From: a virus
Reading direction: 5' to 3' (one strand)
Virus record (IMG/VR): IMGVR_UViG_3300037502_001901
Span: 1 to 22,735 of that record
DNA length: 22,735 bases
The position numbers and the translations under genes are program-made. The notes below the pieces were generated by a model. The model was given only the letters and a program-made list of their open reading frames with translations, was not told the origin of the DNA and ran no database searches. Shown piece after piece: positions 409 to 19,426 of the stretch (the stretch's first letter is position 1; each line of letters begins with the position of its first letter).

Positions 409-416
409 TATTTAGC
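409..416 (-). promoter_or_regulatory. Candidate late promoter octamer (GCTAAATA)
   Basis: Minus-strand GCTAAATA ends 7 bases before the ATG at 401 and overlaps the gp17 stop codon. It keeps the TAAATA core of the T4-type late octamer but has C where consensus TATAAATA has A. It is one of ten such cores placed just before starts in this window. Weak alone. Confidence 0.35.
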
Positions 417-1995
417 GCATCATTGCAATGAAGGGCATCGGTTCAACAATGTTGTCACCGTGGTCCTTTAGGTGTGAATCTAGGTCTGTGTGGTAACTTT
501 GCAGCAATTGCAGCATGCGAGTAGCCAGCAAACAGGACATTACCAAGTCATCTGTTTCGCCGGGCTTGGCAGCATAGCTAGTGCCTATGGCAACAAAGTT
601 TTTGAGTTCGGAAATCAAGGGCTTGCTTTTGATCTTCATGCGCTTGGTTTCTACTAGGATTTTAAACTTGCTGCAAGCACTGAGCTTGCTTTTGTTTGTG
701 GTGTTAAAGCCCTTGCGGAATCTGCGTCCCGAACTGCCTGTTACTGTATTATCACTAAGGAAGTATCCTTTGATGTTCTCTTCCCCGTATTCAGCAATAC
801 TCAACAGTGCCGCTTCGCCAATGGTGTTGTTTTCCACTGAGTAGTAGATCATCTTTTCATCTTTGGTAATAGAGTGAATATGATCTACAATGCCTGCCAT
901 AATGCGTATCTGTTCAGGGATAGTTGTTTTGTTGTGGCGCCACTCTGCAACTTGTTCAGTTGTGCCTGCTTCAAACACTTGAATAGCCGCAGGGTCACCG
1001 CCTGTGCCCAAGCTAGGGTCCAAGGCAACAACATAGATACTGCCGGGTTTAGGGTCTGAATACCAACGCACTTGACCTGTTTTCTTGAACGGCTCTATGC
1101 CTTCCATGTCCACAAGTGTAGTAGGAGCGATCAAGGTTTCATCGTTGATAATGAATTCACAGTCCATCTCTCGACGGAAACGTTCTTCTCCTAGCTGTGC
1201 TCGTTGTTCATCTGCCCATGAATCATCTCGGTCCGGGTGCTCACGCCAGAAAGCCCGGAACGCTTTGAAGCCGTTGATACCTAGCCCATTAGGGCGTTGG
1301 TTGCCGTATTCGTCTTCGGTCTTGTTGGCACCTTTCCAGATCAGCGCAAACTGATCTTCGTCTGAGTTTGGTGTTGATGTAATAATAGCTTTACCACCGG
1401 TGCTCAGTGTAGGTGTAATAGAAGTCCAGAACTCTGACGCAATAGTAGGTCTAACGAACGCAAATTCGTCCAGGTATAGCAGCGAGATAGACATACCCCG
1501 TCCAGTGTTTTCAGTTGTTGTCTGGCTTACAATGCGTGAACCGTTGTCAAAGTCTATTGAACCTTTGTTGTAGCTGGTAACGCCAGCACGAATGTGGTTA
1601 GGGCATAACTCATAAGCATATCTTATACGTTGCATAATTTCCTGTGCACCCAAGTATTTGTGCGCGGCAATTAGAATAGTTGAGTCAGGCACAAACATAG
1701 CGTACCACAACAGGTATCCGGCTGCTGACGTTGACTTGCCTGTTTGTCGAGGCATCAATGAAATACTGAACCGATTCTTGTGATAGTTTTCAATCAGTCT
1801 GCGTTGGTACTCAAACGGATGATAAACCATTTTACCGCGTGTGGGGTGCTGGATGTAAAAGAAATTGTCCATGAAGAACATAGGACCGTCGTCAGAATCT
1901 GCGCACTTCATGAATTCATCAAGTTGCTGTTCCGAAAACGTTTCTTTACGGTGTGGCGCTTTGGTTAGTACGCCCTCCAATCCTGGTTTTAACAT
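412..1995 (-). CDS. 17: Terminase large subunit (gp17-like ATPase/nuclease)
   Basis: This is the motor that pumps DNA into the prohead and cuts the concatemer. The 527 residues show both domains. The N-terminal ATPase has Walker A MPRQTGKST (81-89), Walker B LLYLDEF with D176 and E177, and the coupling motif TSTPN (206-210). The C-terminal RNase H-fold nuclease has an acidic triad matching T4 gp17: D326 (ALDPSLG), E388 (SVENN) and D482/D483 (TDDLV). It is somewhat shorter than T4 gp17 (610 residues), mainly at the N-terminus. It overlaps the upstream SGNH-like gene by 7 bases. The nearest Shine-Dalgarno-like AAGGA is about 13 bases from the ATG, so translational coupling is likely. Unlike in T4, the small subunit is not adjacent but 7 kb upstream (9154-9639). 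Confidence 0.96.
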   Translation of the reverse strand: MLKPGLEGVLTKAPHRKETFSEQQLDEFMKCADSDDGPMFFMDNFFYIQHPTRGKMVYHPFEYQRRLIENYHKNRFSISLMPRQTGKSTSAAGYLLWYAMFVPDSTILIAAHKYLGAQEIMQRIRYAYELCPNHIRAGVTSYNKGSIDFDNGSRIVSQTTTENTGRGMSISLLYLDEFAFVRPTIASEFWTSITPTLSTGGKAIITSTPNSDEDQFALIWKGANKTEDEYGNQRPNGLGINGFKAFRAFWREHPDRDDSWADEQRAQLGEERFRREMDCEFIINDETLIAPTTLVDMEGIEPFKKTGQVRWYSDPKPGSIYVVALDPSLGTGGDPAAIQVFEAGTTEQVAEWRHNKTTIPEQIRIMAGIVDHIHSITKDEKMIYYSVENNTIGEAALLSIAEYGEENIKGYFLSDNTVTGSSGRRFRKGFNTTNKSKLSACSKFKILVETKRMKIKSKPLISELKNFVAIGTSYAAKPGETDDLVMSCLLATRMLQLLQSYHTDLDSHLKDHGDNIVEPMPFIAMMR

Positions 1996-2729
1996 ATCTG
2001 TTGTATATCCTTTGCAACCACTTGTGCAAATGCTTTGTTATTTAACCTACCAGGATGCAAAAGATCCCTGCCAAGGTCGTGCTGTGTTTTATCCTCAACC
2101 AATGCAATGTATGCATCGGGTTTGTAAACAATCAGCGGTATATTGTGCTGGAGACAAATGCTTCGTATGGCTTCACGATTCTTTTCTGCTGCTAGCTCTA
2201 AGTTAGATTCTTCTAGCAGTAGTTCTTTAACATAAATTCCGCCCCAATTTTTATGATCATATGCCCAGTTTAACACTAGCGGAACATCTTCTTTGACTGT
2301 TTTTAATTCAGTGCGATTGTATCTTGGTTCTAGGTACACAACAAACTTAGGTTTCAATTTAGGAATATAATAGCTAGCAATCCTATAACAGGTATCTCCA
2401 GCTGCACCTGCTGTGCCCAGATTCCAGCAGTCTAGTCCAATCTGTTGCTCCACTAGGGTTGTCCATCTATCCGCTACATTAACACCTGTGCCTTGGGTAA
2501 AACTACAGCCAACAGCCATCCAGTTTTCTCTAGTGTCGAATTCGAGAGTTCTAAAGCCTTCGCTGTTGAACGTGTAATCAATACTAACATCTATCCAGCC
2601 AAACACATCTAACAAATGCCGTTTGTTAGTGTCTTTGTTGTGTGTACGATATGCTTCTTCTGTATCTGGACTTAGCCATTGCAACGTTTTGCCTGCACAC
2701 TCACTCCATTGATGCAACGGCACAGTCAT
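1989..2729 (-). CDS. SGNH/GDSL-hydrolase-like protein
   Basis: 246 residues with an SGNH esterase signature: the block I nucleophile segment AVGCSFTQGTG (S76), block II NLGTAGAAGDT (G105) and the block V catalytic pair D222-L-L-H225 followed by P. The usual block III GxND is not obvious; the corresponding strand reads VVYLEPRYN. The family hydrolyses esters, often acetyl groups on sugars, or lipids. There is no signal peptide, so it would act in the cytoplasm or in the virion. Its ATG overlaps the stop of the radical SAM gene as ATGA, and it overlaps gp17, so the three are translated together. Plausible roles are trimming acetyl groups from surface sugar during entry or modifying a virion component; the sequence does not choose. 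The fold is fairly sure, the substrate unknown. Confidence 0.8.
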   Translation of the reverse strand: MTVPLHQWSECAGKTLQWLSPDTEEAYRTHNKDTNKRHLLDVFGWIDVSIDYTFNSEGFRTLEFDTRENWMAVGCSFTQGTGVNVADRWTTLVEQQIGLDCWNLGTAGAAGDTCYRIASYYIPKLKPKFVVYLEPRYNRTELKTVKEDVPLVLNWAYDHKNWGGIYVKELLLEESNLELAAEKNREAIRSICLQHNIPLIVYKPDAYIALVEDKTQHDLGRDLLHPGRLNNKAFAQVVAKDIQQIC

Positions 2730-3862
2730 AGTAAACCTTTAAACTCTGGCCACAGCTTTTCAAACTGTCCTGCTTGATCTTTGTGGTATTGTGTTTCAAT
2801 TTCTTCTATGTGCTTGGCTAGCTTGCGAGCCATAGCAGGCTTGCTTTCAGTAACAGCTTGATAGTTACGCAATGCTTGATCTAAGAACCCACGGTCAGCA
2901 GGTGTAGCAAGTCCCGATGCATAGAAGCGTTCAATTTCAGCTGCGGCAGGTTCTGCAACTTCTCGACCATGCAAGAATGGGTCCAAGTAGTCAGGTTGAA
3001 ACAAGTTTTGCCACAGCACACTCACGCCTTGGTCAGCAGCAAACTGACGGAACTCTGTGATACGTGTGGCATTGTAGATGTTGTACACAGCATGAATGCC
3101 GCCCCAATGCCCTTGCTTGAACAGGTCTTTGACAACGGCAAGATTGTGTAGTACCTGCTGCCACTCGCCGCCATAGCGAACATATTCAAAACGTTCGCCG
3201 ATGTTGTCAAAGCTCATGCTCCAGCCAACTTTCTTACGCTGTGCTAGCTTTTTAAAGATCTTGTTCTTCTCAAGATCCACGTTCATGTTTGTAATCAGTG
3301 TGACTGTACAATCTTCGGGAATGACATCTAGCAAGCGTTCGTTTTCAGGGAGTAACAAAGGCTCGCCGCCCACCAGTGCGACATCTTTGATATGCTCTTG
3401 GTGTTGCTCCAGGAAATCACACACTTGCTCGTAGTAAGGGCGGCTACCAGACTTGAAAGGAATACCTTTGAGTGCTGACCATTTAGAACTAGCCCACTCT
3501 GAGCAATAGTTACAACTGAGATTACAAGTAGTGTTCCAGCGTACATCTACAATTACAGGATAGTGATACAGTTCGCCAGCGGTTTTGTAATCAAATCCAG
3601 GATTGGTATCATTGTGCCACTTGCGTTCAGAGTCTGCACCAAAGCGTTCTGCTTGCACACAGTTTGAGCAATATTTGTGAGGTTTTCCTTGTGCTAAATC
3701 TGTTCTGATCTCTTTGAGTAGATTGCTATCAAGGATTTCGATAATGCTGTGATCGTTGAGATTACCCAACATGTTTGGGTCACCTGCACAACAAGTTTTT
3801 ACATCGCCACGGGGGTTAATATGCAGCCCACGCCATGGGGCTGCGCAAAAGAAATTGGACAT
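2726..3862 (-). CDS. Radical SAM protein with an N-terminal Cys-rich (twitch/SPASM-like) segment
   Basis: 378 residues. The radical SAM cluster motif CX3CX2C is C113-NLS-C117-NY-C120, followed by the SAM-binding GGEP (165-168) and a TNMN strand (191-194). Before it lies a Cys-rich segment (C6 in CAAPW, C24-C25, C65xxC68) of the kind that holds an auxiliary Fe-S cluster in SPASM/twitch enzymes, here placed N-terminal to the core with a text typical of the family (INPRGDVKTCC, GNLND, IRTDLAQGK). Such enzymes perform radical chemistry on peptides or small molecules. Related proteins of this architecture occur in marine T4-like phages, without a settled function. It is coupled by ATGA to the SGNH-like gene, which suggests a joint pathway. 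The start follows an inverted repeat holding a late-promoter-like core. Fe-S binding is confident; the substrate is unknown. Confidence 0.9.
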   Translation of the reverse strand: MSNFFCAAPWRGLHINPRGDVKTCCAGDPNMLGNLNDHSIIEILDSNLLKEIRTDLAQGKPHKYCSNCVQAERFGADSERKWHNDTNPGFDYKTAGELYHYPVIVDVRWNTTCNLSCNYCSEWASSKWSALKGIPFKSGSRPYYEQVCDFLEQHQEHIKDVALVGGEPLLLPENERLLDVIPEDCTVTLITNMNVDLEKNKIFKKLAQRKKVGWSMSFDNIGERFEYVRYGGEWQQVLHNLAVVKDLFKQGHWGGIHAVYNIYNATRITEFRQFAADQGVSVLWQNLFQPDYLDPFLHGREVAEPAAAEIERFYASGLATPADRGFLDQALRNYQAVTESKPAMARKLAKHIEEIETQYHKDQAGQFEKLWPEFKGLL

Positions 3863-3880: not shown

Positions 3881-4315
3881 TTATTGGCACCAGGATTGTT
3901 TTGCGTCGCCGTAGTATTCGCGAGCAAAACCATTTGTAATTAGGCCTTGGCGCAGGCTCTTACCGTCTAGAATGATATCTCCCAACACACGGCCGCCAAA
4001 CTTGTCCCAGCCATACAGTGTGACTTGACGTTTTTGACTGGAGTTGACCGCGGCTTTAGTAAATTCAGTTGCAGCTTTGCCCCTAGCATCTTCTTGAGGG
4101 CACTGTGCCCGGAATCCTTTTTCGGGGGTGTCAACACCAAAAACTCTAACTGCAAGTTCGGGCTTGAGTGGTGCAGGTAGAAAGGGTGCGGCAATCACAA
4201 CTGTGTCGCCGTCGTTGATGCGAACAATTTGTGCGTCATAGGTTACCCCTTGTGGAGTTTTTTGTGCTAGGGCCAAAACAGGCAATAATAAAAGTGCCAA
4301 TACTATTTTTTTCAT
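3881..4315 (-). CDS. Exported thermonuclease (SNase-like)
   Basis: 144 residues from the ATG at 4313-4315. Residues 1-17 form a textbook Sec signal peptide: MKK, a hydrophobic run to P12-V-L, then ALA before Q18. The rest is a Staphylococcus-nuclease (OB-fold) domain. Calcium ligands appear as D35 (NDGDT), D62 and T63; the catalytic set is R57, E65 (in VDTPE) and R109 (DKFGGR), equivalent to R35, E43 and R87 of the staphylococcal enzyme. It would hydrolyse DNA or RNA in the periplasm or outside the cell. I chose the 4315 start over an upstream in-frame ATG at 4342 because AAGG sits 7 bases before it, the signal peptide then begins at residue 1, and the longer form would overlap the upstream gene. 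An active exported nuclease in a structural cluster is unusual. Confidence 0.92.
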   Translation of the reverse strand: MKKIVLALLLLPVLALAQKTPQGVTYDAQIVRINDGDTVVIAAPFLPAPLKPELAVRVFGVDTPEKGFRAQCPQEDARGKAATEFTKAAVNSSQKRQVTLYGWDKFGGRVLGDIILDGKSLRQGLITNGFAREYYGDAKQSWCQ

Positions 4316-4329
4316 TTTTATACCTTGTG

Positions 4330-4962
4330 TTAAACTTGACAAACTGTTGCTATAACTGAGGGAACTATTGGGCCCGGGCCCGAACTAGCTGGTGCAATAA
4401 TATCAATACCAGCATCGCTACTCCACCAAGCCAGCTTTACATAGTCGCCGGCCTGTAGTTCTTCAACATAATTCCAAGCAGCGATATATTTGGTATTGTT
4501 ACCTGACATTGTTACAGAACCACCAGAGTATGGTATTGCAGTGCCATTTTTTTCCAGCCATATTTCCATGTCAGATGTTCCGCCGCCAGTCTTTACAAAC
4601 TGAGTACTAAATTGTATGTTGTACACGCCATCAAAATCCACAGTAATTTCATCACCATTGGCCACACTGACATGATTATTACTGCTGGTTGTGTTTAACT
4701 GCATGTAATTGACATTGCCAGCGGCATTGTTTTGATTTGTTGTGTCGTAGAACGACCCGTAAAACTTTGTGGCGTTGGCATTGGCTAACAGCACCAGATT
4801 GCCATTGTTGTCGCCAGCGTAAAGATTGAGATTATTTTGTTCCACCACAAGCTCAGCAGGCCTAGCATTGCCATTGTATTGCACAATATTAACCTGTGCA
4901 TTGTCTTTCATCGCCGCACGGCTAATACCAGTTATATTGCTGTATGGTGGTGGATTAGCCAT
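4330..4962 (-). CDS. C1q/TNF-like jelly-roll virion protein
   Basis: 210 residues. The N-terminal third (1-65) has a short phrase, RPAELVVEQNNLNLYAGD, like the head-domain linkers of phage fibre and structural proteins. Residues 68-210 read as a C1q/TNF-like jelly roll: FYDTTNQ, then alternating strands including DFDGVYNIQFSTQFVKTG, EIWLEKNGTAIP, AAWNYVEELQAGDYVKLAWWS and a C-terminal PSVIATV strand. Such domains form trimers on fibres, appendages or capsid decorations and often bind carbohydrate. It follows the 4966-5349 gene by 3 bases and has its own TATAAATA promoter at 4986-4993, with an AAAGGA site about 12 bases before the ATG. Late expression and the fold suggest a virion surface or receptor-binding role; this is inference. 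Confidence 0.75.
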   Translation of the reverse strand: MANPPPYSNITGISRAAMKDNAQVNIVQYNGNARPAELVVEQNNLNLYAGDNNGNLVLLANANATKFYGSFYDTTNQNNAAGNVNYMQLNTTSSNNHVSVANGDEITVDFDGVYNIQFSTQFVKTGGGTSDMEIWLEKNGTAIPYSGGSVTMSGNNTKYIAAWNYVEELQAGDYVKLAWWSSDAGIDIIAPASSGPGPIVPSVIATVCQV

Positions 4963-4965
4963 TTA

Positions 4966-5349
4966 TTAAATATATCCTTTGAAACTATTTATAGGGCTTT
5001 TGTTTACAACAAAATCCGGCTCTTCACTGTCAGGAGTTGACACTATTTTCTTGCCACCGGGTGTGTTAGTCATTTTGAGAGCAGCGTCAATTACATCGCC
5101 AATGCCTGAATTCATGCCCGATACTACTGCATGCTCGCCAAATGTAGTTTCTGCTGACCATTCGGGCATGTACGGATTAACATCGTCTTTGCGATAATCG
5201 CTGCGAGCTCGCGCTACAGCTACACCCATGCGATATGTTTTATATGGATCAGAACTAGACAGGCCTGGCAGTGTATAGGTGTAACGCATGGGTTCGCGAG
5301 TCTCAGGAGGAAGCTCACGTTGTTCGCGAATAAATTCTCGTGCTCGCAT
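4966..5349 (-). CDS. Small phage protein with capsid-targeting-like N-terminus (MRAREFIRE) and SPIxxFKGY tail
   Basis: 127 residues, soluble, no membrane segment. The N-terminus MRAREFIRE resembles the capsid-targeting sequence of T4 internal proteins (for IPIII roughly MKTYQEFIAE), which gp21 protease removes after the Glu. The middle has YRMGVAVARARSD, FGEHAVVSGMNSGIGDVIDAALKMT and KIVSTPDSEEPD; the end is SPINSFKGYI. I recall similar short proteins in marine T4-like phages, without a known role. The ATG shares its A with the stop of the upstream paralogue (TGATG), with GAGG 6 bases before it. A late promoter for the next gene lies inside its 3' end. A head-internal protein is the best inference; a free structural or accessory protein is the alternative. 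Confidence 0.8.
   Translation of the reverse strand: MRAREFIREQRELPPETREPMRYTYTLPGLSSSDPYKTYRMGVAVARARSDYRKDDVNPYMPEWSAETTFGEHAVVSGMNSGIGDVIDAALKMTNTPGGKKIVSTPDSEEPDFVVNKSPINSFKGYI
4986..4993 (-). promoter_or_regulatory. T4-type late promoter TATAAATA for the C1q-like gene
   Basis: An exact minus-strand TATAAATA inside the last codons of the 4966-5349 gene, 23 bases before the ATG at 4962. Transcription would start around 4980, and the leader includes the AAAGGA ribosome site. Confidence 0.65.
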
Positions 5350-5720
5350 CAGTAACCTCGGAAACCTTTTATTGGACTGACATTGTTAACTGCTGGATGC
5401 TCTTCAGAATCCAAATCCCCACGATTTAAATCATAATGCTTGCTTCCTACAACTTGATAGGCTTTTTTCAACATGTCAGCTTCTTCTTTGGTATACGGTG
5501 CTGCCACGTCGTGGCGTCCTACCCATGATTCAGCATCCATGTCCTGAACAAATTCTTTTCCGTCGTTTGAAGCAACAGCCATCATTATTCGATTGAGTTC
5601 GTATACGCGGTCAGCAAATTCAGCGTCGCGAAACTTGTGCAGGCCTACTGTGGCCTGCTGATTTCGTGTGCTAAGGTCACCAACTTTTTTGTGTTCAGCA
5701 ATGAACTCATTGGCTCGCAT
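5349..5720 (-). CDS. Small phage protein with capsid-targeting-like N-terminus (MRANEFIAE) and SPIxxFRGY tail
   Basis: 123 residues. The N-terminus MRANEFIAE matches the T4 internal-protein capsid-targeting pattern even better than its neighbour, with IAE being a canonical gp21 cleavage context. The rest is charged and helical: residues 30-60 (FRDAEFADRVYELNRIMMAVASND), a W-GRHD motif, then YTKEEADMLKKAYQVVGSKHYDLN and a tail SPIKGFRGY. The body differs from the downstream neighbour, yet both ends are shared, so the two look like members of one delivery class carrying different cargo domains. The junctions are TAATG upstream, with AGGA 6 bases before the ATG, and TGATG downstream. No enzymatic motif is visible. 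A head-internal, possibly injected, protein is inferred. Confidence 0.8.
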   Translation of the reverse strand: MRANEFIAEHKKVGDLSTRNQQATVGLHKFRDAEFADRVYELNRIMMAVASNDGKEFVQDMDAESWVGRHDVAAPYTKEEADMLKKAYQVVGSKHYDLNRGDLDSEEHPAVNNVSPIKGFRGY

Positions 5721-6010
5721 TATTGTCCTGCAGAGTTATAAACACTGGCAGTAGCCGAGCTTGCGGTACCAAGTTCTAACGCAGTCCAGTTAGAACCGGA
5801 AATAGTAACTTTGTTGCCTGCGCCCGAATACATTTCTGTAGTAGAGTTAGCAGGAATAGATATCGCAGCAGAGTAGAGGTTGCCAACAGCATTAGCAGTT
5901 CCTAGAGCTACAGCATAAACTTGATACGTAACCGCAGTGTTACCAGTCGAAATGCTCAACTTATCGGTATACACTGTGGCATTAGCTAGACTAGTATAAA
6001 CGTTGGCCAT
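5720..6010 (-). CDS. Small beta-rich virion protein, unknown
   Basis: 96 residues rich in S, T, A, N and V and almost without charged residues. It starts MANVYTSLANATVYTDK and proceeds as regular beta strands (YQVYAVALGTANA, NLYSAAISIPANSTTEMYSG, KVTISGSNWTALELGTASS). That composition is typical of small structural or decoration proteins or of a receptor-binding beta sandwich. There are no cysteines, signal peptide or membrane segment. It is coupled by TAATG on both sides: its ATG overlaps the stop of the 62-residue gene and its stop overlaps the ATG of the 5349-5720 gene. AAGGA lies about 10 bases before the start. I do not recognise the family. Confidence 0.75.
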   Translation of the reverse strand: MANVYTSLANATVYTDKLSISTGNTAVTYQVYAVALGTANAVGNLYSAAISIPANSTTEMYSGAGNKVTISGSNWTALELGTASSATASVYNSAGQ

Positions 6011-6198
6011 TATTTGCTATCCTTGTCAGGATGTCCATTGTAAGTGTTGTATAGAGCACGTGACTGCTCTAGCACGCCAGTCATCGGAACTGGCGTTTGT
6101 TTTACTTGAGGCATCATAGGCGGAGTGTATTCGTTGGCACGTCGACGTGCCAACTCGTCGGCTACCTCAGTGTATGGTCGCATCATGTTATTGTTCAT
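6010..6198 (-). CDS. 62-residue basic/Pro-rich protein, unknown
   Basis: 62 residues beginning MNNNMMRPYTEVADELARRRAN, followed by a Pro/Met-rich linker (TPPMMPQVKQTPVPMTGV) and a short C-terminal helix. It fits exactly between its neighbours: 3 bases after the stop of the 771-residue gene and a TAATG junction into the next gene, which supports it being real despite its size. The ribosome site is weak (AAGTAAAC); M5 or M6 could also be the start. The Arg-rich stretch (ELARRRAN) is encoded by a perfect 22-bp palindrome. Function unknown; a small structural or assembly factor is possible. Confidence 0.6.
   Translation of the reverse strand: MNNNMMRPYTEVADELARRRANEYTPPMMPQVKQTPVPMTGVLEQSRALYNTYNGHPDKDSK
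6133..6154. repeat. Perfect 22-bp palindrome inside the 62-residue gene
   Basis: The left arm GTTGGCACGTC is followed directly by its exact reverse complement GACGTGCCAAC. There is no spacer and no mismatch. It could bind a symmetric protein dimer or fold in the mRNA as a strong hairpin (about 9 bp with a 4-base loop). It lies in codons for ELARRRAN. Confidence 0.8.
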
Positions 6199-6201
6199 AG
6201 T

Positions 6202-8517
6202 TTACTTAGGTTGATATGTTTTCCAAAGATTGCGAGTAGCGGCTATGATACCTTCGTCTACTTTTTCCATGTCGCCGTCGCCGTCTAAGTCAGCTTGTTT
6301 TTTACCAGCAGCACGAGCCTTAGCTAAGTTACCGGTGAACAAGTTACCTTCTTCAGTCTTTTCTTCGTCAACTTCTTTCTTCTTGACACCAGCCATTTCC
6401 ATCATACGCTTGATAGCATCTTCTTCTGCTTCGGCGTATGTGCCTTGACGCTCATCTTGGCTAGCAAGAACTGGTACTGTGCTTTGTCCGGTTGACTTAG
6501 GGCCATCTAAACCGCCACTGTATTGCATGACGTTGTTGCTGGTTTCTGTGTTAGTAGGGTAGTCTGGCTCATTCATAGAAACTTCGTCAAGCTCTTCGTC
6601 GCCACACGAGCAGTCAGGAGATCCGCAACCACATGCTGACTTGTAACCACTACCGCCGTAGCCTTCGTCACCACCTAGACCAGCCATCTTGAGAATAGAG
6701 GCCAACTTCATTGCATCATCGTCTGTGGCAGTGATAGTCAAGCTCTTGCCACCTTCGGTGCTGTTGCTCATGTTAACACTCATGCTCTCATTAAGAGTAG
6801 AGTCAAGACGAGCCATGCTTTCTGAAATCATGTCTTCTAGGTCACGATTCATTGAATCATAGATGCCTTTGCCGTAGCTGAAGCCGCTGCTGGCAGTAGG
6901 TGTACCTGAACCGCCGGCTTCTTCAGTTTTTTCTTTTTTCTTGCCTTCGGGCTTTTTCTTTTCAGGCAAGCCTTTGTGCTTGGTGGCAGCAAAATCTTCA
7001 GCGTCTTTCTTGCCCATTGACTTGGCTACTTTGGCAACTTCTTTTGAAGGTGCTTTCTCGCCCTTTTGTGTTGCATGAACCATGCCCATAAAGCGTTGTT
7101 GCTTTTTGCTTACTGCTTTTTCAGACACTTGTTCTTCGCTGTCGTCCATCATCTGCAAGATGTCTTCGATCTTGTTGCCCAACATTTTGTTGCCGTCTTC
7201 AAAGGCTTCGTCACGCAGGCGTACAAGAATTTGAATATCGTCTTCACTGGCGCCTTCTTTGGTCATCAACTTTGACTTGCCGCTAGGACCTTTGGCGCCT
7301 ATTTTGCCGCCTGTGCCCTTTGGACGTCCGCGACCTTTTGCTACTGGCTTTCCTTCTGTATCGTCGTCAGCACCAACACTGTAACCTTGATCATCTGTAC
7401 GGCGTGTTACTTTGCGACCTGTAGCAGTGTGCTCAATATCATGCTTGTGACCACGCTCCACTGATCCAACTTTGGGTTTTTCTGCACGTGGCTTTTTCCA
7501 GTTGGTAAATGGATTGTTGTCATCGTCGCTGGCTTCTTCCATGCTGCTTTTGCCGGTTAGTCTCTTTTTGCTAGGACCTTTCATACGATCTACAGGATGG
7601 CTGTCTTGATCTGACCCGCCATACACACCGGGACCTGCTGAATGTTTGACCCCTTTGGCAGTCTTGGTGACTGTTCCGCCTTTGCTAGTAACAGCAGACT
7701 TCATTGCATTGGCAGCAACGTCACCCAGCATTTCGTCAACTTCTTTTTTGGCGCCAGCAATCTTGTCAGCAAAAGTGATCTTGTCTTTGGGTTCTGCCAA
7801 AGCTGCAAAACTCTTTTGCTTGGCGCTCATTGGCGCCGCAGCTTCTTTAGGTTGTGCCATGCTTTTTTTGCCGTGTACTTGAGTACCAGTTGCGCCCATC
7901 TTGCGTTGCAAGTCACGGATCATGTCTGCATCACTACTATGACCTAGTGTGTCCAGTGCCTTGCCAGCAACTTTCTTGACAGCGCCGCCTACTTTACGAG
8001 CCATGTCGCCTAGACCTTCTTCCATGTTGTTGTCTAGACCAATTTTGTGCATAGCGGCACTTTGTTGGGCATTGGCATATCTTCCAATTCTTTCAGGATA
8101 CATTGGATCCTGTCCATATTCGTCGCGATGTTTATTAACTTCTTTCTTCATGATTCCGCGATGGGCATCAACTGCTGCTTGACGGTCTTTTGGATTCTTA
8201 GTAATGTTGGCTTTCAAACCTTTTAGTTTAGCACCAGCTGTATCTGACATGTCTCCAACTTTATCAAATCCTTTAGCCAGTGCAGAGCCTAGACCTTCTT
8301 CCACTGACTCGTCATACTTGTCATACTTGGCGCGGATTGGATCAAGAGCTTTGCCTTCACGTCCGGCCTTGGCCAATGCCTCCATGCCTTCTTTGCCATA
8401 CTTCTCATAGCCTTTGGCAGCACGGCTCATGTCACGCTCGTTCAACTGCTTGTGCTCACTCTTTGGAGTTTCCAAAGCCTGTTGCAGTCTTTTGTTTAAA
8501 TCATAAAAAAATGTCAT
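6202..8517 (-). CDS. 771-residue multi-motif protein (AT-hook, DUF3008-like, Cys cluster), probable head-internal or structural protein
   Basis: A long, hydrophilic, Lys/Gly/Asp-rich protein. It starts MTFFYDLNKRLQQAL. Visible elements in order: SRAAKGYEKYGKEGMEALAKAG helices (31-52); two EEGLG repeats (73-77 and 166-170), each before an amphipathic helix; an AT-hook GRGRPKG (395-401); a DUF3008-like segment (about 465-520) with KKQQRFMGMVHATQKGE and KHKGLPEKK; a Cys cluster C629, C631, C636, C638; and near the end GNLFTGNLAKARAAGKK with an acidic loop D743-x-D745-G-D747-G of EF-hand/dockerin type. There is no signal peptide or membrane segment. The DNA-binding hook and position beside capsid-targeted proteins suggest DNA contact in the head; a scaffold or core role is the alternative. 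AGAGGA lies 8 bases before the ATG. DUF3008 is assigned from memory. Confidence 0.85.
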   Translation of the reverse strand: MTFFYDLNKRLQQALETPKSEHKQLNERDMSRAAKGYEKYGKEGMEALAKAGREGKALDPIRAKYDKYDESVEEGLGSALAKGFDKVGDMSDTAGAKLKGLKANITKNPKDRQAAVDAHRGIMKKEVNKHRDEYGQDPMYPERIGRYANAQQSAAMHKIGLDNNMEEGLGDMARKVGGAVKKVAGKALDTLGHSSDADMIRDLQRKMGATGTQVHGKKSMAQPKEAAAPMSAKQKSFAALAEPKDKITFADKIAGAKKEVDEMLGDVAANAMKSAVTSKGGTVTKTAKGVKHSAGPGVYGGSDQDSHPVDRMKGPSKKRLTGKSSMEEASDDDNNPFTNWKKPRAEKPKVGSVERGHKHDIEHTATGRKVTRRTDDQGYSVGADDDTEGKPVAKGRGRPKGTGGKIGAKGPSGKSKLMTKEGASEDDIQILVRLRDEAFEDGNKMLGNKIEDILQMMDDSEEQVSEKAVSKKQQRFMGMVHATQKGEKAPSKEVAKVAKSMGKKDAEDFAATKHKGLPEKKKPEGKKKEKTEEAGGSGTPTASSGFSYGKGIYDSMNRDLEDMISESMARLDSTLNESMSVNMSNSTEGGKSLTITATDDDAMKLASILKMAGLGGDEGYGGSGYKSACGCGSPDCSCGDEELDEVSMNEPDYPTNTETSNNVMQYSGGLDGPKSTGQSTVPVLASQDERQGTYAEAEEDAIKRMMEMAGVKKKEVDEEKTEEGNLFTGNLAKARAAGKKQADLDGDGDMEKVDEGIIAATRNLWKTYQPK

Positions 8518-8523
8518 TTTGAA

Positions 8524-9132
8524 TTATCCTCTTGGGTTAGCACCAGTTGCTGGCTTGGGTTGACGTTTGATATTGCTGAAAGGACTCTTGTCGCCCTGTG
8601 GCAAATCATTTGTGGTTTTAGCAGGTGGGGTGTTACCTCCGGCTACTGTGAATTTTGTACGGTAGGCGTTTTTAAGAACCACGTGGTCATGAGATTCAGC
8701 GCCATAGTCTTTCTTGAGAGCCTTTTGCTCTTTGTCATCTGCTGGATAGTCAGGATCGTCCAACAAGTCTTTGTTTTGATCCGTAATTTTGTCGTTCTCA
8801 ACGTTGAGACTATTGTCATGAGCAACGGTGCCCATCACAATGCGATTCTCGTCTAGGCCAGCTAGTCTAGCAATCTGTTTGATCTGTGGTTCGATAGCTG
8901 GGTATCTAAACTCAACATCCACAATGGTCAACGACTCATTGGGAAATGCCGGGAAATCGGGGATTTGCTTGCGCACTGGGGTGGTCTTGGGTTCAGACAT
9001 TTTTACAACGTCAAACTGAGCAAGCTTTTCTTTCATTGCTTTAAGAAAGCCCTCGGGCAGATCACCAACTACCTTGATACGGTAGTTGTAAGTACGTTCG
9101 CTCTCGGTTAAGTATTTTGCGAATGTTTTCAT
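8524..9132 (-). CDS. Phage protein with capsid-targeting-like N-terminus (MKTFAKYLTE)
   Basis: 202 residues. The N-terminus MKTFAKYLTE|S has the form of the T4 internal-protein capsid-targeting sequence, with LTE followed by Ser, a good context for a gp21-type prohead protease. Residues 13-110 look like two ferredoxin-like repeats: YNYRIKVVGDLPEGFLKAMKEKLAQFDVVKMS and LTIVDVEFRYPAIEPQIKQIARLAGLDENRIVM. The C-terminal third is acidic, then Pro/Lys-rich and probably disordered. I recall related proteins beginning this way in marine T4-like phages, but no established function. It has a CATAAATA late promoter 18 bases upstream and an AGGAA site, and ends 6 bases before the 771-residue gene. A protein packaged in the head is the inference. 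Confidence 0.82.
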   Translation of the reverse strand: MKTFAKYLTESERTYNYRIKVVGDLPEGFLKAMKEKLAQFDVVKMSEPKTTPVRKQIPDFPAFPNESLTIVDVEFRYPAIEPQIKQIARLAGLDENRIVMGTVAHDNSLNVENDKITDQNKDLLDDPDYPADDKEQKALKKDYGAESHDHVVLKNAYRTKFTVAGGNTPPAKTTNDLPQGDKSPFSNIKRQPKPATGANPRG

Positions 9133-9150: not shown

Positions 9151-9158
9151 TATTTATG
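9151..9158 (-). promoter_or_regulatory. Late promoter CATAAATA for the 202-residue protein
   Basis: Minus-strand CATAAATA matches the NATAAATA form I recall for late promoters of marine T4-like phages. It ends 18 bases before the ATG at 9132, leaving room for a short leader with AGGAA. It overlaps the last codons of gp16. Confidence 0.6.
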
Positions 9159-9639
9159 TTTTCTTGTTGTCTTTGAGCAAACGCTCTAGCAAATCATTGC
9201 GATTTAAAACCACGCCTTGTGCTGTTTGTGTGGGCCCAGAGTCGCCTTCTTTTTCTGCAGCCTGCTGATCCAACCGCATTTTTTTCATCTGCAAATCGAT
9301 CATTTTGAGCTTTTTGTCTAGCTTGGCTGTTTTGGCTGTGATTGCATGGCCCAACATGTTTGATGCTACACTGAATATTTCACTAGCGAATCGACTGTCG
9401 ACTTGCATGCCTAGATCCATGAGATCTTTGTAGCTGTCAGTGGCCAAACTGGCCAGTTCATCCATTTCCTGGTCAGTGCTTTCTAGTCCTTTGACAGCAG
9501 GCAGTGCATCATCTATTTTGTCAATGGTGGCGTCTAATGCAGCCAAAGTCTCCCGATTGGTAGGCAGTTCCGGGATGGCGGTGTCTACTTCTTCTGTGGT
9601 GGGAGGTAAATCGAACAATTCCTCAAGTTTTCTAGTCAT
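9154..9639 (-). CDS. 16: Terminase small subunit (gp16-like)
   Basis: 161 residues, close to T4 gp16 (164). It begins MTRKLEELFDL and is nearly all alpha-helical. The central part, from DQEMDELASLATDSYKDLMD through RFASEIFSVASNMLGHAITA to KTAKLDKKLKMIDLQMKKMR, reads like the helical hairpin of T4-like gp16, which forms rings, recognises DNA and stimulates gp17. The C-terminus is basic (LLERLLKDNKKT). Its start lies 15 bases after the gp4 stop and directly behind a TATAAATA element, with only AGGG near the ATG, so the late transcript may lack a leader. Its partner gp17 is far downstream in this genome. Assignment is by helix pattern, length and context. Confidence 0.78.
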   Translation of the reverse strand: MTRKLEELFDLPPTTEEVDTAIPELPTNRETLAALDATIDKIDDALPAVKGLESTDQEMDELASLATDSYKDLMDLGMQVDSRFASEIFSVASNMLGHAITAKTAKLDKKLKMIDLQMKKMRLDQQAAEKEGDSGPTQTAQGVVLNRNDLLERLLKDNKKT

Positions 9640-9654: not shown

Positions 9655-10086
9655 TCATGCTCGGCCGTTGTGGAACATTTGGTCTTCTGTTATGACTCGA
9701 AACGTAATGCCCTGACGCTGGCACCATTTTTGAGCTGCTGCCCATTTGGCATAGTTGATAGCAACCACGGCACGGTCTCGTGAGCTCATTTTTGACTCAA
9801 TCACGCTTTGCTTTTTGGGTTTGATTTCAATCAGCTCTGCTCTCATGGTGTTGTTGCGAGTGCGATAAGTGATCAGGAAGTCGGGCACATAGATAGTTTG
9901 TTTGCCTGTAAGTGGGTGACGATAGGGTATTTGTATGGCTTCACTAGCCCATTGTAACACATTTGAGTTGGTGTCACAAAATCTCATGAAGCTGAGTTCC
10001 CACCCGGACCTGTATCTAGGCTGTTTGGTGCCTACATATTTGTCAGAATTTTGAACTTGATAAAAACCCTGTGCCCATTTGCTCAT
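9655..10086 (-). CDS. 4: Head completion protein, gp4-like PD-(D/E)xK nuclease
   Basis: 143 residues. The opening WAQGFYQVQNSDKYVGTKQPRYRSGWE is characteristic of T4 gp4 (also called gp50), which acts on the filled head before tail joining. The fold is a small PD-(D/E)xK nuclease: E30 in the first helix (SGWE), P68-D69-F70, then E87-I88-K89 in ELIEIKPKKQ, with a later helix ending KWCQRQGI. It may trim packaged DNA ends or plug the portal. It is coupled to the preceding gene by AATGA (4-base overlap) and ends 15 bases before gp16. Family and active residues are clear. Confidence 0.9.
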   Translation of the reverse strand: MSKWAQGFYQVQNSDKYVGTKQPRYRSGWELSFMRFCDTNSNVLQWASEAIQIPYRHPLTGKQTIYVPDFLITYRTRNNTMRAELIEIKPKKQSVIESKMSSRDRAVVAINYAKWAAAQKWCQRQGITFRVITEDQMFHNGRA

Positions 10087-16158: not shown

Positions 16159-16642
16159 CCAACTCACGGGTATTGCGCTCTAAGTCAGATAGTGTGCCAT
16201 TGTTGTCAATCACATAGTCTGCCATCCAGATTTCCAAGCTCATGCTGCTCTTGTCTTCCTGAGGCAAATGATCGCTGCGGTCCACCCAAATAGCATAGTC
16301 AAACACATTGGTGTTCTTCATGGCATGAAACTCTGACTTGTTGCGCAGACCGCAGTAGATATCGTTTTCAGCAAAAATTTCCCTGCCCAAACGAGCATAG
16401 TCATCCCGGCAATATTCATGAATCATGTCGTACCATTCTGCACGATGATTATGTCTGTCCTCAAAACACTGCTCATAGCTAGTGTATCCATACTTGTCCT
16501 TGAGCTCAGCATAGATAAACTTTTCGGCACAAAAGTCTGAGCTAGAGCGAAAGCTATATCCAAACTCTTCACGCAGGATATCACATACAGTGTCTTTGCC
16601 GTGACGAGCATTGCCGATAATCAGTAATTTAGGTAGTGTCAT
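16073..16642 (-). CDS. P-loop nucleotide kinase (deoxynucleoside monophosphate kinase-like)
   Basis: 189 residues. The N-terminus LLIIGNARHGKDT is a P-loop (G10, G15-K16-D17-T18) of the type found in dNMP and related nucleoside kinases; T4 gene 1 encodes such an enzyme, though 241 residues long. A possible substrate or lid region is YEQCFEDRHNHRAEWYDMIHEY, followed by DYARLGREIFAEND, a strand FDYAIWVDRSDHLP and a C-terminal helix with YVIDNNGTLSDLERN, as in kinases of this fold. It would help supply dNTPs for phage replication. Its ATG overlaps the exonuclease stop as ATGA, so the pair share a transcript from the sigma-70 promoter at 17166-17194. Kinase fold is confident; exact substrate is not. 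Confidence 0.82.
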   Translation of the reverse strand: MTLPKLLIIGNARHGKDTVCDILREEFGYSFRSSSDFCAEKFIYAELKDKYGYTSYEQCFEDRHNHRAEWYDMIHEYCRDDYARLGREIFAENDIYCGLRNKSEFHAMKNTNVFDYAIWVDRSDHLPQEDKSSMSLEIWMADYVIDNNGTLSDLERNTRELVTRLVVDHRDAIQNQISINRSRSYGTQF

Positions 16643-17160
16643 TTTAGTTCAGTTACGTTAAGGTGGCGCAGGGTATTTTGCAACATGCCAATTTGGCGCC
16701 GGCAATCTTCTAGTGCATGGTGGCTAGTAGGCGGAATAGGCTGCCCTGGCCACAAGCTAAACACTGTGCGGCTGTCCCGAACCATGTAGTATTTCCAGGG
16801 CAGGGGCTTGCGATAGCTCTTGTAGGCATGTTCCAGGATGTTCATGTCATATGTGGGACCTTGTGCCCAGATTAGCTTGGAGTGCCAAATCAGCTTGCCT
16901 AGCTCGTCTAAGGCTTGATCGAGTGGTATACGACCTTCTTCATCGAACGCTTCGTCACGTACGATAGCAGGCTGAGTTGCCCACCAATCAATTGTGCCTT
17001 GATCAATGGCGCGGTCAGGTTGGCTTTCCAGCGTTACTCTAGCATAGTAAGATTGTTCGTAATGTCCGTGCCCAAAAGGATCAAATGCCTGGGCAGCTAT
17101 GGTGAGAATACAGGTATCCGGGCCAGTTGCTAGCCCTTCTAGGTCGATCATTAGGTGCAT
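16639..17160 (-). CDS. DEDDh 3'-5' exonuclease (Rv2179c-like)
   Basis: 173 residues. The DEDDh active-site set is complete: D6 and E8 in MHLMIDLEGL, D105 in GPTYDMNIL, H147 and D152 in SHHALEDCRRQ. The opening and the phrase CILTIAAQAFDP match the Rv2179c-like branch of RNase T/DnaQ-fold exonucleases; T4 DexA is a functional relative. It would degrade single-stranded DNA or RNA ends from the 3' side, for host nucleic acid turnover or repair. The first ATG lies at the predicted transcription start of a consensus promoter, so the leader is absent or only a few bases; M4 is an alternative start. It is coupled by ATGA to the kinase. Its early-type promoter inside a late gene region marks it as a separate expression unit. 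Confidence 0.9.
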   Translation of the reverse strand: MHLMIDLEGLATGPDTCILTIAAQAFDPFGHGHYEQSYYARVTLESQPDRAIDQGTIDWWATQPAIVRDEAFDEEGRIPLDQALDELGKLIWHSKLIWAQGPTYDMNILEHAYKSYRKPLPWKYYMVRDSRTVFSLWPGQPIPPTSHHALEDCRRQIGMLQNTLRHLNVTELK

Positions 17161-17165
17161 ACTGC

Positions 17166-17194
17166 ATTATAGCACATATGCACCAGTGTGTCAA
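17166..17194 (-). promoter_or_regulatory. Consensus sigma-70 promoter (TTGACA-17-TATAAT, extended -10)
   Basis: Minus-strand TTGACA (17189-17194) and TATAAT (17166-17171) are separated by exactly 17 bases, with TGC directly before TATAAT (extended -10). Both hexamers are perfect consensus. The -35 begins right after the gp13 stop codon. It points at the exonuclease/kinase pair; the predicted start is near 17159, at the exonuclease ATG. Confidence 0.85.
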
Positions 17195-17965
17195 TTAGCC
17201 AATTACCCAAGTTAGAGGTTGTGAGCCATCTACATAGTTCTTGAGTTGTTCTTCTAGTGCTGTCATTGCCTCTTTGGCTTCGGCTTTCATGGCCGCACCG
17301 TTTAGGGTGCCGCCGCCTTGTGGGCCAGCAATGGTTCCAAACTTCTCACGTGCTTCACCAATGATCATTTTGCAGTTAGCCACCATGTAGTCCTTGATCC
17401 ATTGACTAATTTGGAAGTCACTCAGCAAGTTGATTTCGGGCTTTAGGTTATAGGTCCACAGCAAAACGTTTTCGCCAGTGCCTTTTGGGTCGCGCACTAG
17501 CTGGAGTTTTTTGGTTACAGGGTTAAAAGTGTAGTTCATGTAGCCACCAAACATACGTGCGGCAAGTTCTACATATTGGCTATAGAAATCGTATGTAGCA
17601 AGGCCACCTGCTACGTTGAAGTTCATGAGATACACGTTCAGCGATGCTTGAGCAAATGGGTCAAAGTTTGACGCAAATGGGCCAGTGGAATCACCGAAAG
17701 TTCTGCGAAAGATTTGCCTTACAGTAACAACTTCTTGAGGTAATTGATAAATGTTTACATCACGGACTAGTTCCATGAATGAGTATGATTCTTCGTAAGC
17801 GCCTTGGGCACGTTGACGATAGGTGCCAATTGTTTTTTGGTATGCTGATTCGTAGTGAGCTGGATCCAACTCGACGTCTACAATATCGCCGCCGAGTTGA
17901 AGCCGTACATAATCGTTTAGATTTTGTTTTAGTGTGTCAAGACTGTTTTGTTGCTGTTCTGCCAT
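17195..17965 (-). CDS. 13: Neck protein (gp13-like)
   Basis: 256 residues from the ATG at 17963-17965. The opening, LDTLKQNLNDYVRLQLGGDIVDVELDPAHYESAYQKTIGTYRQR, has the form of T4-like gp13 neck proteins (a short helix, a hydrophobic strand, then D-x-D-x-x-x-x-x-x-x-A). Later come VNIYQLPQEVVTVRQIFRR and ISQWIKDYMVANCKMIIGEAREKFG, then GPQGGGTLNGAAMKAEA. gp13 joins the filled head to the tail together with gp14. I preferred the inner ATG to the one at 17983 because GGAG lies 6 bases before it, though inside a hairpin, and a TAAATA element is correctly spaced. It follows the 17987-19129 gene by 21 bases. Confidence 0.75.
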   Translation of the reverse strand: MAEQQQNSLDTLKQNLNDYVRLQLGGDIVDVELDPAHYESAYQKTIGTYRQRAQGAYEESYSFMELVRDVNIYQLPQEVVTVRQIFRRTFGDSTGPFASNFDPFAQASLNVYLMNFNVAGGLATYDFYSQYVELAARMFGGYMNYTFNPVTKKLQLVRDPKGTGENVLLWTYNLKPEINLLSDFQISQWIKDYMVANCKMIIGEAREKFGTIAGPQGGGTLNGAAMKAEAKEAMTALEEQLKNYVDGSQPLTWVIG

Positions 17966-17966
17966 G

Positions 17967-17981
17967 GGGGACTCCGTCCCC
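17967..17981 (-). promoter_or_regulatory. Hairpin over the gp13 ribosome-binding site
   Basis: Minus-strand GGGGAC-GGA-GTCCCC is a perfect 6-bp stem with a 3-base loop. The Shine-Dalgarno GGAG (17972-17975) fills the loop and first stem base, 6 bases before the gp13 ATG. It could restrain gp13 translation unless ribosomes arriving from upstream open it. Confidence 0.5.
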
Positions 17982-17983
17982 AT

Positions 17984-17991
17984 TATTTACC
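17984..17991 (-). promoter_or_regulatory. Late-promoter-like GGTAAATA for gp13
   Basis: Minus-strand GGTAAATA ends 18 bases before the gp13 ATG at 17965 and overlaps the stop of the upstream gene. The same octamer precedes gp19 at a similar distance (21). Confidence 0.4.
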
Positions 17992-19129
17992 AGCTTTTAA
18001 GGATCACAATGTTCTCTGTACCGCGACCATTGAACTGAGTTTCTGTAGTTGTGAGCTCTTTAAACAGTTTACGAGCAGCCGGCTTGCCTGCGGCACCGAG
18101 TGCTTTCAGGGTTTCTGCTGGCTTGCGCACAGTTTTTTGCACAGTTTCTACTGTGCTAAATCCAATGATAGCATTGTTCTTGACTGTAAAAACTTTGGCA
18201 TACTCGTCGGCTACAACGTGAATCAACTTGCGCTTCTTGGTGTCATATAACCAAGCTTCTGCCTTGTCCACTAGCTGTGCCGCAGGTAGTGACTTGAGTT
18301 TAAGTTCAGCAAACTCAGCTTGGAACTTGAATTTGGCCGCTTTCTTCTCTGGCGGCACCGCCTTGACTTTGCGTGGTTTACGTTCCACTTTCTTGATCTG
18401 GACGTAAGAGCCGCAGTCGCTGATCACCAGCTCACAGAACTTGACACAGTTCTTGAGTTGTGTTTTGGTCATGTAGTCGTAGGCTTTTGCAACTTCTGCA
18501 TCCTTGCCCTCGGCCGCTGTTTCAAACTCGGCTAGTTTGCGAGTCCAAGTATCCTTGATCATTGATACCATTTGCGGTGCAATGTTCATGCTTCGCATCA
18601 AGCTCACTGGCTTGTAGTCAGCATTGAGTTTAGCCCCAGACATGATAAAATCGTCAAACAAGCCATCTAGTTCGCCCAGGCACTCACTTGCCTTTTCACG
18701 CAGACGATCCTGGATCGTAAGTTTAGAAGGGGCAGTTTCGTCTGCCACTGCAACTTCTTCAACCACAGCTTCTTGCTTGGATTCCAAAATTTCTTTCAGC
18801 AAGTTGTCTAGTTGAATCTGCTCATGGTCCGACAGTTCTAGTCCTACCATGCTCATGCGACACAGCCAGCCTGTAGTCAAACGTATCGAGCTGTCTGGAA
18901 TACCTTTTAGCAGTTTAACATCTGCCTTGCGGTCGTGGCTTTCGAGATAGTTAACAATCATGTCCCGGGCATCTTTTTTGCCGTAGAAGTAGTTGTACCA
19001 CGAAAATGCTTTGCTCAAGGCACTGATGCGGTTATCAGTGGGTTGTATATTCCAAGTGGGTTCCATGCCCATGGCATTGGTATCTGCACTACGCGGATTC
19101 AGGGGCTTAACTGGTTTTGTTGCAATCAT
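17987..19129 (-). CDS. Conserved-looking phage protein, unknown (380 residues)
   Basis: 380 residues, soluble and Lys-rich. Residues 30-75 (NRISALSKAFSWYNYFYGKKDARDMIVNYLESHDRKADVKLL) are a helical module; 95-150 form acidic helices; about 255-275 is a basic linker (KKVERKPRKVKAVPPEKKAAKFKF). The C-terminal 110 residues (ELKLKSLPAAQLVDKAEAWLYDTKKRKLIHVVADEYAKVFTVKNNAIIGFS) look like a small beta domain, ending KELTTTETQFNGRGTENIVILKSW. I remember proteins of this kind near neck genes of marine T4-like phages but know no function. The basic linker suggests nucleic-acid contact. The start has AAGGAA about 7 bases upstream. It lies 9 bases after the 95-residue gene and may share that gene's sigma-70 promoter. 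Confidence 0.85.
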   Translation of the reverse strand: MIATKPVKPLNPRSADTNAMGMEPTWNIQPTDNRISALSKAFSWYNYFYGKKDARDMIVNYLESHDRKADVKLLKGIPDSSIRLTTGWLCRMSMVGLELSDHEQIQLDNLLKEILESKQEAVVEEVAVADETAPSKLTIQDRLREKASECLGELDGLFDDFIMSGAKLNADYKPVSLMRSMNIAPQMVSMIKDTWTRKLAEFETAAEGKDAEVAKAYDYMTKTQLKNCVKFCELVISDCGSYVQIKKVERKPRKVKAVPPEKKAAKFKFQAEFAELKLKSLPAAQLVDKAEAWLYDTKKRKLIHVVADEYAKVFTVKNNAIIGFSTVETVQKTVRKPAETLKALGAAGKPAARKLFKELTTTETQFNGRGTENIVILKSW

Positions 19130-19138
19130 AATTGTTCC

Positions 19139-19426
19139 TTACTTAGTCTTGGGCAAATCTTTAACAGTGTCAAACAGTTTTGAGGCACGTTTGACATCAA
19201 AATTTTTGTGCTTGTACATCCAGGCTTTTTTGCGTTCTGCTACTTCTAGTGCTTCTGCTAGTTTCCATTTTGTATTGAAGTCCACTGTCATTATAATACG
19301 ACTCATGTCTACAATGTCTAAGGCATACTCTACCCATTTTTCTGTCGCCTTTACTTTGTCGTAAGGCTGTATGACACCCTTGCTTTTTGGGCCTGTGTAC
19401 TTTGCAACAAAATTTGCGGCTTTCAT
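19139..19426 (-). CDS. Small basic protein, unknown (95 residues)
   Basis: 95 residues starting MKAANFVAKYTGPKSKGV, with a central helix (KWVEYALDIVDMSRIIMTVD), then FNTKWKLAEALEVAERKKAWMYKHKNFD and a basic end (KDLPKTK). An upstream in-frame ATG at 19465 exists, but GGGAG lies 7 bases before the inner ATG at 19426, and the sigma-70 promoter at 19456-19484 would start transcription between the two, so I use 19426. No known motif, signal peptide or membrane segment. An early or constitutive promoter suggests a host-takeover or DNA-related role rather than a virion part, yet it leads into the gp13 operon. Confidence 0.75.
   Translation of the reverse strand: MKAANFVAKYTGPKSKGVIQPYDKVKATEKWVEYALDIVDMSRIIMTVDFNTKWKLAEALEVAERKKAWMYKHKNFDVKRASKLFDTVKDLPKTK

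Follow-up and report, generated by a model that had tools for sequence, protein, structure and literature searches.

Putative capsid-targeting N-termini on three late-region phage proteins and on unrelated proteins of related viruses

Introduction

Three ORFs of an IMG/VR virus record, from an uncultured T4-like phage, begin with MRAREFIRE, MRANEFIAE and MKTFAKYLTE, which raises the question of whether these short N-termini are capsid-targeting propeptides like those of the T4 internal proteins (IPs), and what such a tag carries in this phage and its relatives. An earlier note on this DNA had reported the three starts and compared them with a T4 IP N-terminus of roughly MKTYQEFIAE; all three are present on the minus strand as described, and in the T4 genome IPII and IPIII indeed start MKTYQEFIAE. 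We consider it likely that all three are propeptides of the same kind as the T4 capsid-targeting sequence (CTS), that the bodies behind them stay in the head and may be ejected from it, and that relatives reuse a close variant of the tag on many other bodies.

Results

The tagged ORFs lie in a late gene module

The window, that is, the whole stretch of DNA analysed, is the entire 22.7-kb virus record and contains 27 ORFs; no nucleotide match to it was found in INPHARED. ORF1, ORF2 and ORF3 lie in a late module bounded by a gp4-type head-closure gene and the large terminase gene:

412..1995, minus strand: terminase large subunit (phrog_36964, E 3.5e-115)
4966..5349, minus strand: ORF1 (127 aa), paralogous to ORF2 by sequence comparison and predicted to be an internal head protein
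5323..5349, minus strand: MRAREFIRE, tag of ORF1, with cleavage predicted after E9 (M1, R2, A3, E5, F6 and E9 invariant in 19/19 orthologues retrieved via body peptides)
5349..5720, minus strand: ORF2 (123 aa), paralogous to ORF1 and predicted to be an internal head protein (sequence comparison; model pLDDT 74)
5694..5720, minus strand: MRANEFIAE, tag of ORF2, with cleavage predicted after E9 (kept in orthologues found via body peptides)
6202..8517, minus strand: 771-aa protein directly downstream of ORF3 (ORF list)
8524..9132, minus strand: ORF3, 202 aa, conserved virion protein with a CTS-like N-terminus (MS-identified homologues; model)
9103..9132, minus strand: MKTFAKYLTE, tag of ORF3, with cleavage predicted after E10 (K2, F4, Y7, L8 and E10 conserved)
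9154..9639, minus strand: probable small terminase (phrog_16202, E 3e-13)
9655..10086, minus strand: head closure protein, T4 gp4 type (phrog_218, E 9.8e-41)

The gene at 9154..9639 is one that we take, from its position, to be gp16-like; phrog_16202 itself is a family of unknown function. The start of ORF1 overlaps the stop of ORF2 by one base, and a 96-aa ORF overlaps ORF2 to the same extent. The place of the 771-aa gene is occupied in phage PA5oct by EST35_0203, an MS-identified virion protein matched by position only. The 771-aa protein is not enriched in [IL]xE (6 sites vs 4.8 in shuffles) and thus gives no evidence of being a gp22-like cleaved core protein. Elsewhere in the window, two proteins were recognized by eye only: one is radical-SAM-like (2726-3862), the other thermonuclease-like, its start resembling a signal peptide (3881-4342).

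The motif is enriched at ORF starts

A strict motif, M.{2,5}[EKDQR][FYL][ILVM].E, was written after the window had been seen and was then applied elsewhere. Of the 27 ORFs in the window, 3 begin with it, where the frequency at internal positions predicts 0.05 (P 2e-5). Over nine contigs including the window it marks 41 starts, against 6.9 expected (P 9e-19, a value that does not count independent events because related families recur between contigs). In IMG/VR, a DNA pattern encoding MRAxEFIxE matched at least 120 stretches and the residue-shuffled control MARxFEIxE matched 23. The former coincide with real starts of ORFs, with a median of 8 open codons upstream, whereas control matches are mostly intragenic (median 44). 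As a positive control, 8/283 T4 ORFs carry the strict motif, six of them encoding the head or prohead proteins IPII, IPIII, gp21, gp22, gp24 and inh, and the other two being gene 61.1 and mobD.1. T4 gene 61.1 (NC_000866 18966-19130, locus L242) encodes a 54-aa protein annotated as hypothetical, with the near-perfect CTS-like start MKTFKEFIKE. The late-promoter motif TAAATA was not enriched upstream of tagged ORFs (21/140 vs 25% of other ORFs).

It is extremely improbable that the tags arose by chance or were recently inherited from a single gene. Two of the three tags are not independent, since ORF1 and ORF2 are paralogues; against this stand the enrichment over nine contigs and in IMG/VR relative to the shuffled control, and the roughly 30 unrelated bodies that remain once the tag is removed. 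Chance as the origin of the tags was ruled out on the start enrichment, the shuffled control and these bodies.

Conserved tag positions match those required in T4 IPIII

Targeting of T4 IPIII needs residues 4 and 7 and its processing needs residues 8 and 10; a change to D10 blocks processing and leaves targeting intact (PMC9026906). The 21 ORF3 orthologues were fetched independently of their own tag and so give a less biased view of its conservation. They keep K2, F4, Y7, L8 and E10 and vary at positions 3, 5, 6 and 9; F4 (17/21) and Y7 (21/21) correspond to the IPIII targeting residues 4 and 7. D10 (YLTD) occurs in one member, which ranks among the most divergent. At the sequence level, the entropy pattern of the ORF3 family matches the published IPIII targeting and processing positions.

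With the CTS of T4 IPI, IPII and IPIII (MKTYQEFIAE; MKTFKEFTSTTTPVSTITE), the window and its relatives share an M[KR]..(x)EF[IL]xE or MKxFxxYLxE start. The EF[IL]xE half of the ORF1 and ORF2 tags matches IPIII, but MRAxEFIxE, at 9 residues, is one shorter and has no aromatic residue at position 4, so ORF1 and ORF2 agree only in part with the IPIII targeting residues. An [IL].E site falls within residues 4-22 in 18/21 ORF3, 53/58 ORF1 and 50/63 ORF2 sequences (the last two sets partly fetched by tag), compared with 0.015-0.058 in body windows. At loci retrieved via body peptides, E5, F6 and E9 are each present in 19/19 ORF1 orthologues; for ORF2, retrieved with six peptides of which one overlaps the tag, the counts are 17/20, 18/20 and 17/20. 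Residue 7 is I, L or V in both.

Five ORF2 orthologues have lost E9, and their [IL]xE ends at residue 13 after a short TTT-like insert (MRAKEFVTTTITE), resembling the T4 IPI arrangement MKTFKEFTSTTTPVSTITE; these five may represent only one or two events. Synonymous codons differ at conserved tag positions, indicating that the peptide, not the DNA, is what is conserved.

Relatives encode T4-type head machinery

Neither gp21 nor gp23 is present in the window, which is a fragment. In the long relatives G001, G002 and G004, gp23 and gp21 adjoin portal- and scaffold-like genes, and gp21 was found in these three contigs with a full head module. All seven tag-bearing contigs of at least 150 kb encode gp23, against 1/3 control contigs of that size. 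In two relatives gp22 contains 21 and 18 [IL]xE sites (7.6 and 7.4 in shuffles), and in two relatives all four [IL]xE sites of gp23 fall in the N-terminal propeptide. A small ORF with a gp23-like piece (G005 42312-42722; PF07068, E 7e-12) sits in a run of short ORFs ending LKW[ST]-like.

The likeness to T4 IPs thus extends from the [IL]xE site, the small bodies and the IPI-like displaced site to the T4-type gp21, gp22 and gp23 of relatives. By analogy with T4, we infer a course in which the 9-10-residue peptide would be taken up with the scaffold core during prohead assembly and a gp21-type protease would cut after [IL]xE. The mature body would remain in the head with the DNA and would possibly be ejected at infection, with any action in the host following from there. 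Among relatives, the reuse of a closely similar tag on many unrelated bodies would make the packaged repertoire open-ended.

ORF3 belongs to a family of virion proteins

ORF3 is similar in sequence to CBB_210, EST35_0202, GAP32_204 and phrog_14802, annotated 'virion structural protein'. CBB_210 of Pectobacterium phage CBB was detected by 13 MS peptides at 60.5% coverage (PMC5259590), and EST35_0202 of PA5oct is annotated from ESI-MS/MS. The two homologues occupy the same gene neighbourhood, and gene order around the head-closure gene is shared. The CBB and GAP32 members start MNKLQKILTE, an N-terminal signal as in ORF3, whereas the PA5oct and Phosso homologues lack the cleavage-site E. Of the three tagged proteins, ORF3 is the one with MS-identified homologues. 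MS detection cannot separate head from tail; a head location for the family is suggested by the motif. The a priori motif showed no enrichment among PA5oct MS-identified proteins (0/93 vs 2/385), and enrichment appeared only with a variant defined post hoc (7/93 vs 4/385, p 0.0014).

The ORF3 model (pLDDT 68) comprises a ferredoxin-like N-terminal domain and a low-confidence tail. In a fold search it weakly matched ferredoxin-like structures of the S6/PII type (E 6e-4 at best), which indicates fold class only. The most fitting view of ORF3 is that of a virion protein conserved among large T4-related phages.

ORF1 and ORF2 form a conserved pair

ORF1 and ORF2 align as paralogues from end to end (26% identity, E 7e-10), and both have the C-terminus SPIxxF[KR]GY. 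The proposal that the three bodies are mutually unrelated is therefore correct for ORF3, which has a separate body, and wrong for the other two; there are two body families. ORF1 and ORF2 are slightly acidic, unlike the T4 IPs, which have been described as basic. The two genes keep their paired arrangement in many contigs. No ORF2 homologue was found in INPHARED. The ORF2 model (pLDDT 74) gave nothing below E 0.78 in a PDB fold search, and in BFVD its only significant match was A0A6J7WL65, to part of a 320-aa cytidyltransferase-like phage protein (E 9e-8, 39% identity). Family searches, and for ORF2 the fold searches of PDB and BFVD, returned no link from the window bodies to IPI or another IP. 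In contrast to those of T4 IPs, cleavage and packaging of the window proteins are predictions from sequence. By analogy, ORF1 and ORF2 are best seen as a duplicated pair of small, presumably internal head proteins with a conserved late-region position.

The earlier note had also raised an anti-restriction function. This finds no support, because ORF3 is a conserved virion protein and ORF1 and ORF2 are a conserved late-region pair. T4 IPI is an anti-restriction protein (PMC9026906), and ORF1 and ORF2 are likewise small and tagged, and are paired; it nevertheless seems unlikely that they are injected counter-defence effectors, as their family is conserved in many contigs and not hypervariable, and the ORF2 fold matches no known inhibitor in PDB or BFVD.

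A narrower form of our explanation, compatible with its reading of the tag, holds that the tag serves for docking to the prohead core and for processing, and is confined to assembly or structural proteins, so that the three window proteins would build or fill the head and be inactive in the host. This is a serious possibility that falls a little short of probable. It accords with the conservation of ORF3 in far relatives and the MS identification of its homologues, with the lasting pairing of ORF1 and ORF2 in many contigs, with the assembly role of T4 IPIII (PMC9026906) and with the same motif on T4 gp21, gp22 and gp24. The enzyme-like tagged bodies found elsewhere (ADP-ribosyltransferase, GH19, GNAT), which have no obvious assembly role, count against it.

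The tag is reused on about 30 bodies

After the first 12 residues had been trimmed off, the 153 tagged proteins that reach 100 aa or more fell into 30 families, the ORF1/ORF2 family accounting for 87 of them; the set was fetched mostly by tag and so demonstrates reuse, not its frequency. One body is an ADP-ribosyltransferase (L176:6640-7242; PF03496, E 9.5e-13), which has no match in INPHARED and whose only sequence match among solved structures is C3larvin (E 7e-4). Others are GH19, amidoligase, GP88 and GNAT proteins, with a weak ParB match. HExxH and kinase-like bodies were identified by eye, and the HExxH body gave chance-level matches only in a PDB sequence search. Consecutive or nearby tagged genes with mostly unrelated bodies form clusters at G001 195732-201220, G003 16310-19357, G019 77500-92090 and L179 1402-5690.

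Two tagged GH19 proteins (L100:2992-3612, plus strand; G001 198995-199861) contain a Tat-like RRGFLG stretch. In the L100 protein it directly follows the predicted cleavage site, and the Pfam TAT_signal match (E 0.0096) fails the cut-off.

The RRGFLG right behind the tag in some GH19 proteins would fit a shared N-terminus that is some other targeting or regulatory leader of late genes, acting for example in translation or membrane association, as would the failed a priori enrichment in PA5oct. Such a leader is nonetheless quite improbable given the position-specific CTS match, the relocated [IL]xE, the co-occurrence of the tag with a T4-type head module and the variable codons. The capsid-targeting reading put forward in the earlier note is instead well supported, by the match to T4 genetics, the relocated [IL]xE, the head module of relatives, the MS-identified ORF3 homologues and the roughly 30 bodies.

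Discussion

The occurrence of a close variant of the tag on about 30 unrelated bodies, several of them enzyme-like, suggests that phages have here a general means of bringing proteins into bacterial cells. Tentatively, and with slightly less than even confidence, we propose that in large uncultured T4-like phages a portable 9-10-residue tag acts as a delivery code, by which clustered unrelated enzymes would be loaded into the head, trimmed by gp21 and injected, and packaged effectors could be read from their N-termini. Its cargo would perhaps include the ADP-ribosyltransferase and the GH19 muramidase-like, GNAT, amidoligase, metalloprotease-like and kinase-like proteins, and in one lysozyme the predicted cleavage would conceivably expose a Tat-like signal.

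T4 itself has an internal ADP-ribosyltransferase, Alt (MELITELFDE), and the tagged ADP-ribosyltransferase of a relative is a parallel; it lies outside the window, however, and its only sequence match among solved structures is C3larvin, not Alt. The ejection (inner body) proteins of phiKZ and SPN3US likewise undergo processing in the head, are packaged together with the DNA and leave with it. They belong to another phage group, and SPN3US propeptides are mostly much longer, exceeding 100 residues for several, with 20 for gp45 (PMC5694885). CTS use for various internal proteins in T4-type phages is already known (PMC9026906); the open-access literature searched yielded no study that had surveyed uncultured phages for the tag or had described it on such a range of bodies, which is weak evidence of absence.

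The main interest lies in the cargo repertoire of uncultured phages. Injected phage proteins are normally known only through proteomics of cultured ones. If a tag calibrated on T4 can be read from sequence, lists of predicted packaged proteins could be drawn up for many uncultured T4-like phages. The T4 internal-protein system would then prove to be a general delivery system with enzymatic cargo instead of a T-even speciality. The tag also provides short peptides with which proteins could be loaded into phage heads.

A module of about 50 aa, phrog_10346, is common to several tagged proteins (for example L199:3130-3846 and L079:18644-19357), and the first of these has further matches in Synechococcus phages, to proteins whose annotation is tail fiber or hypothetical.
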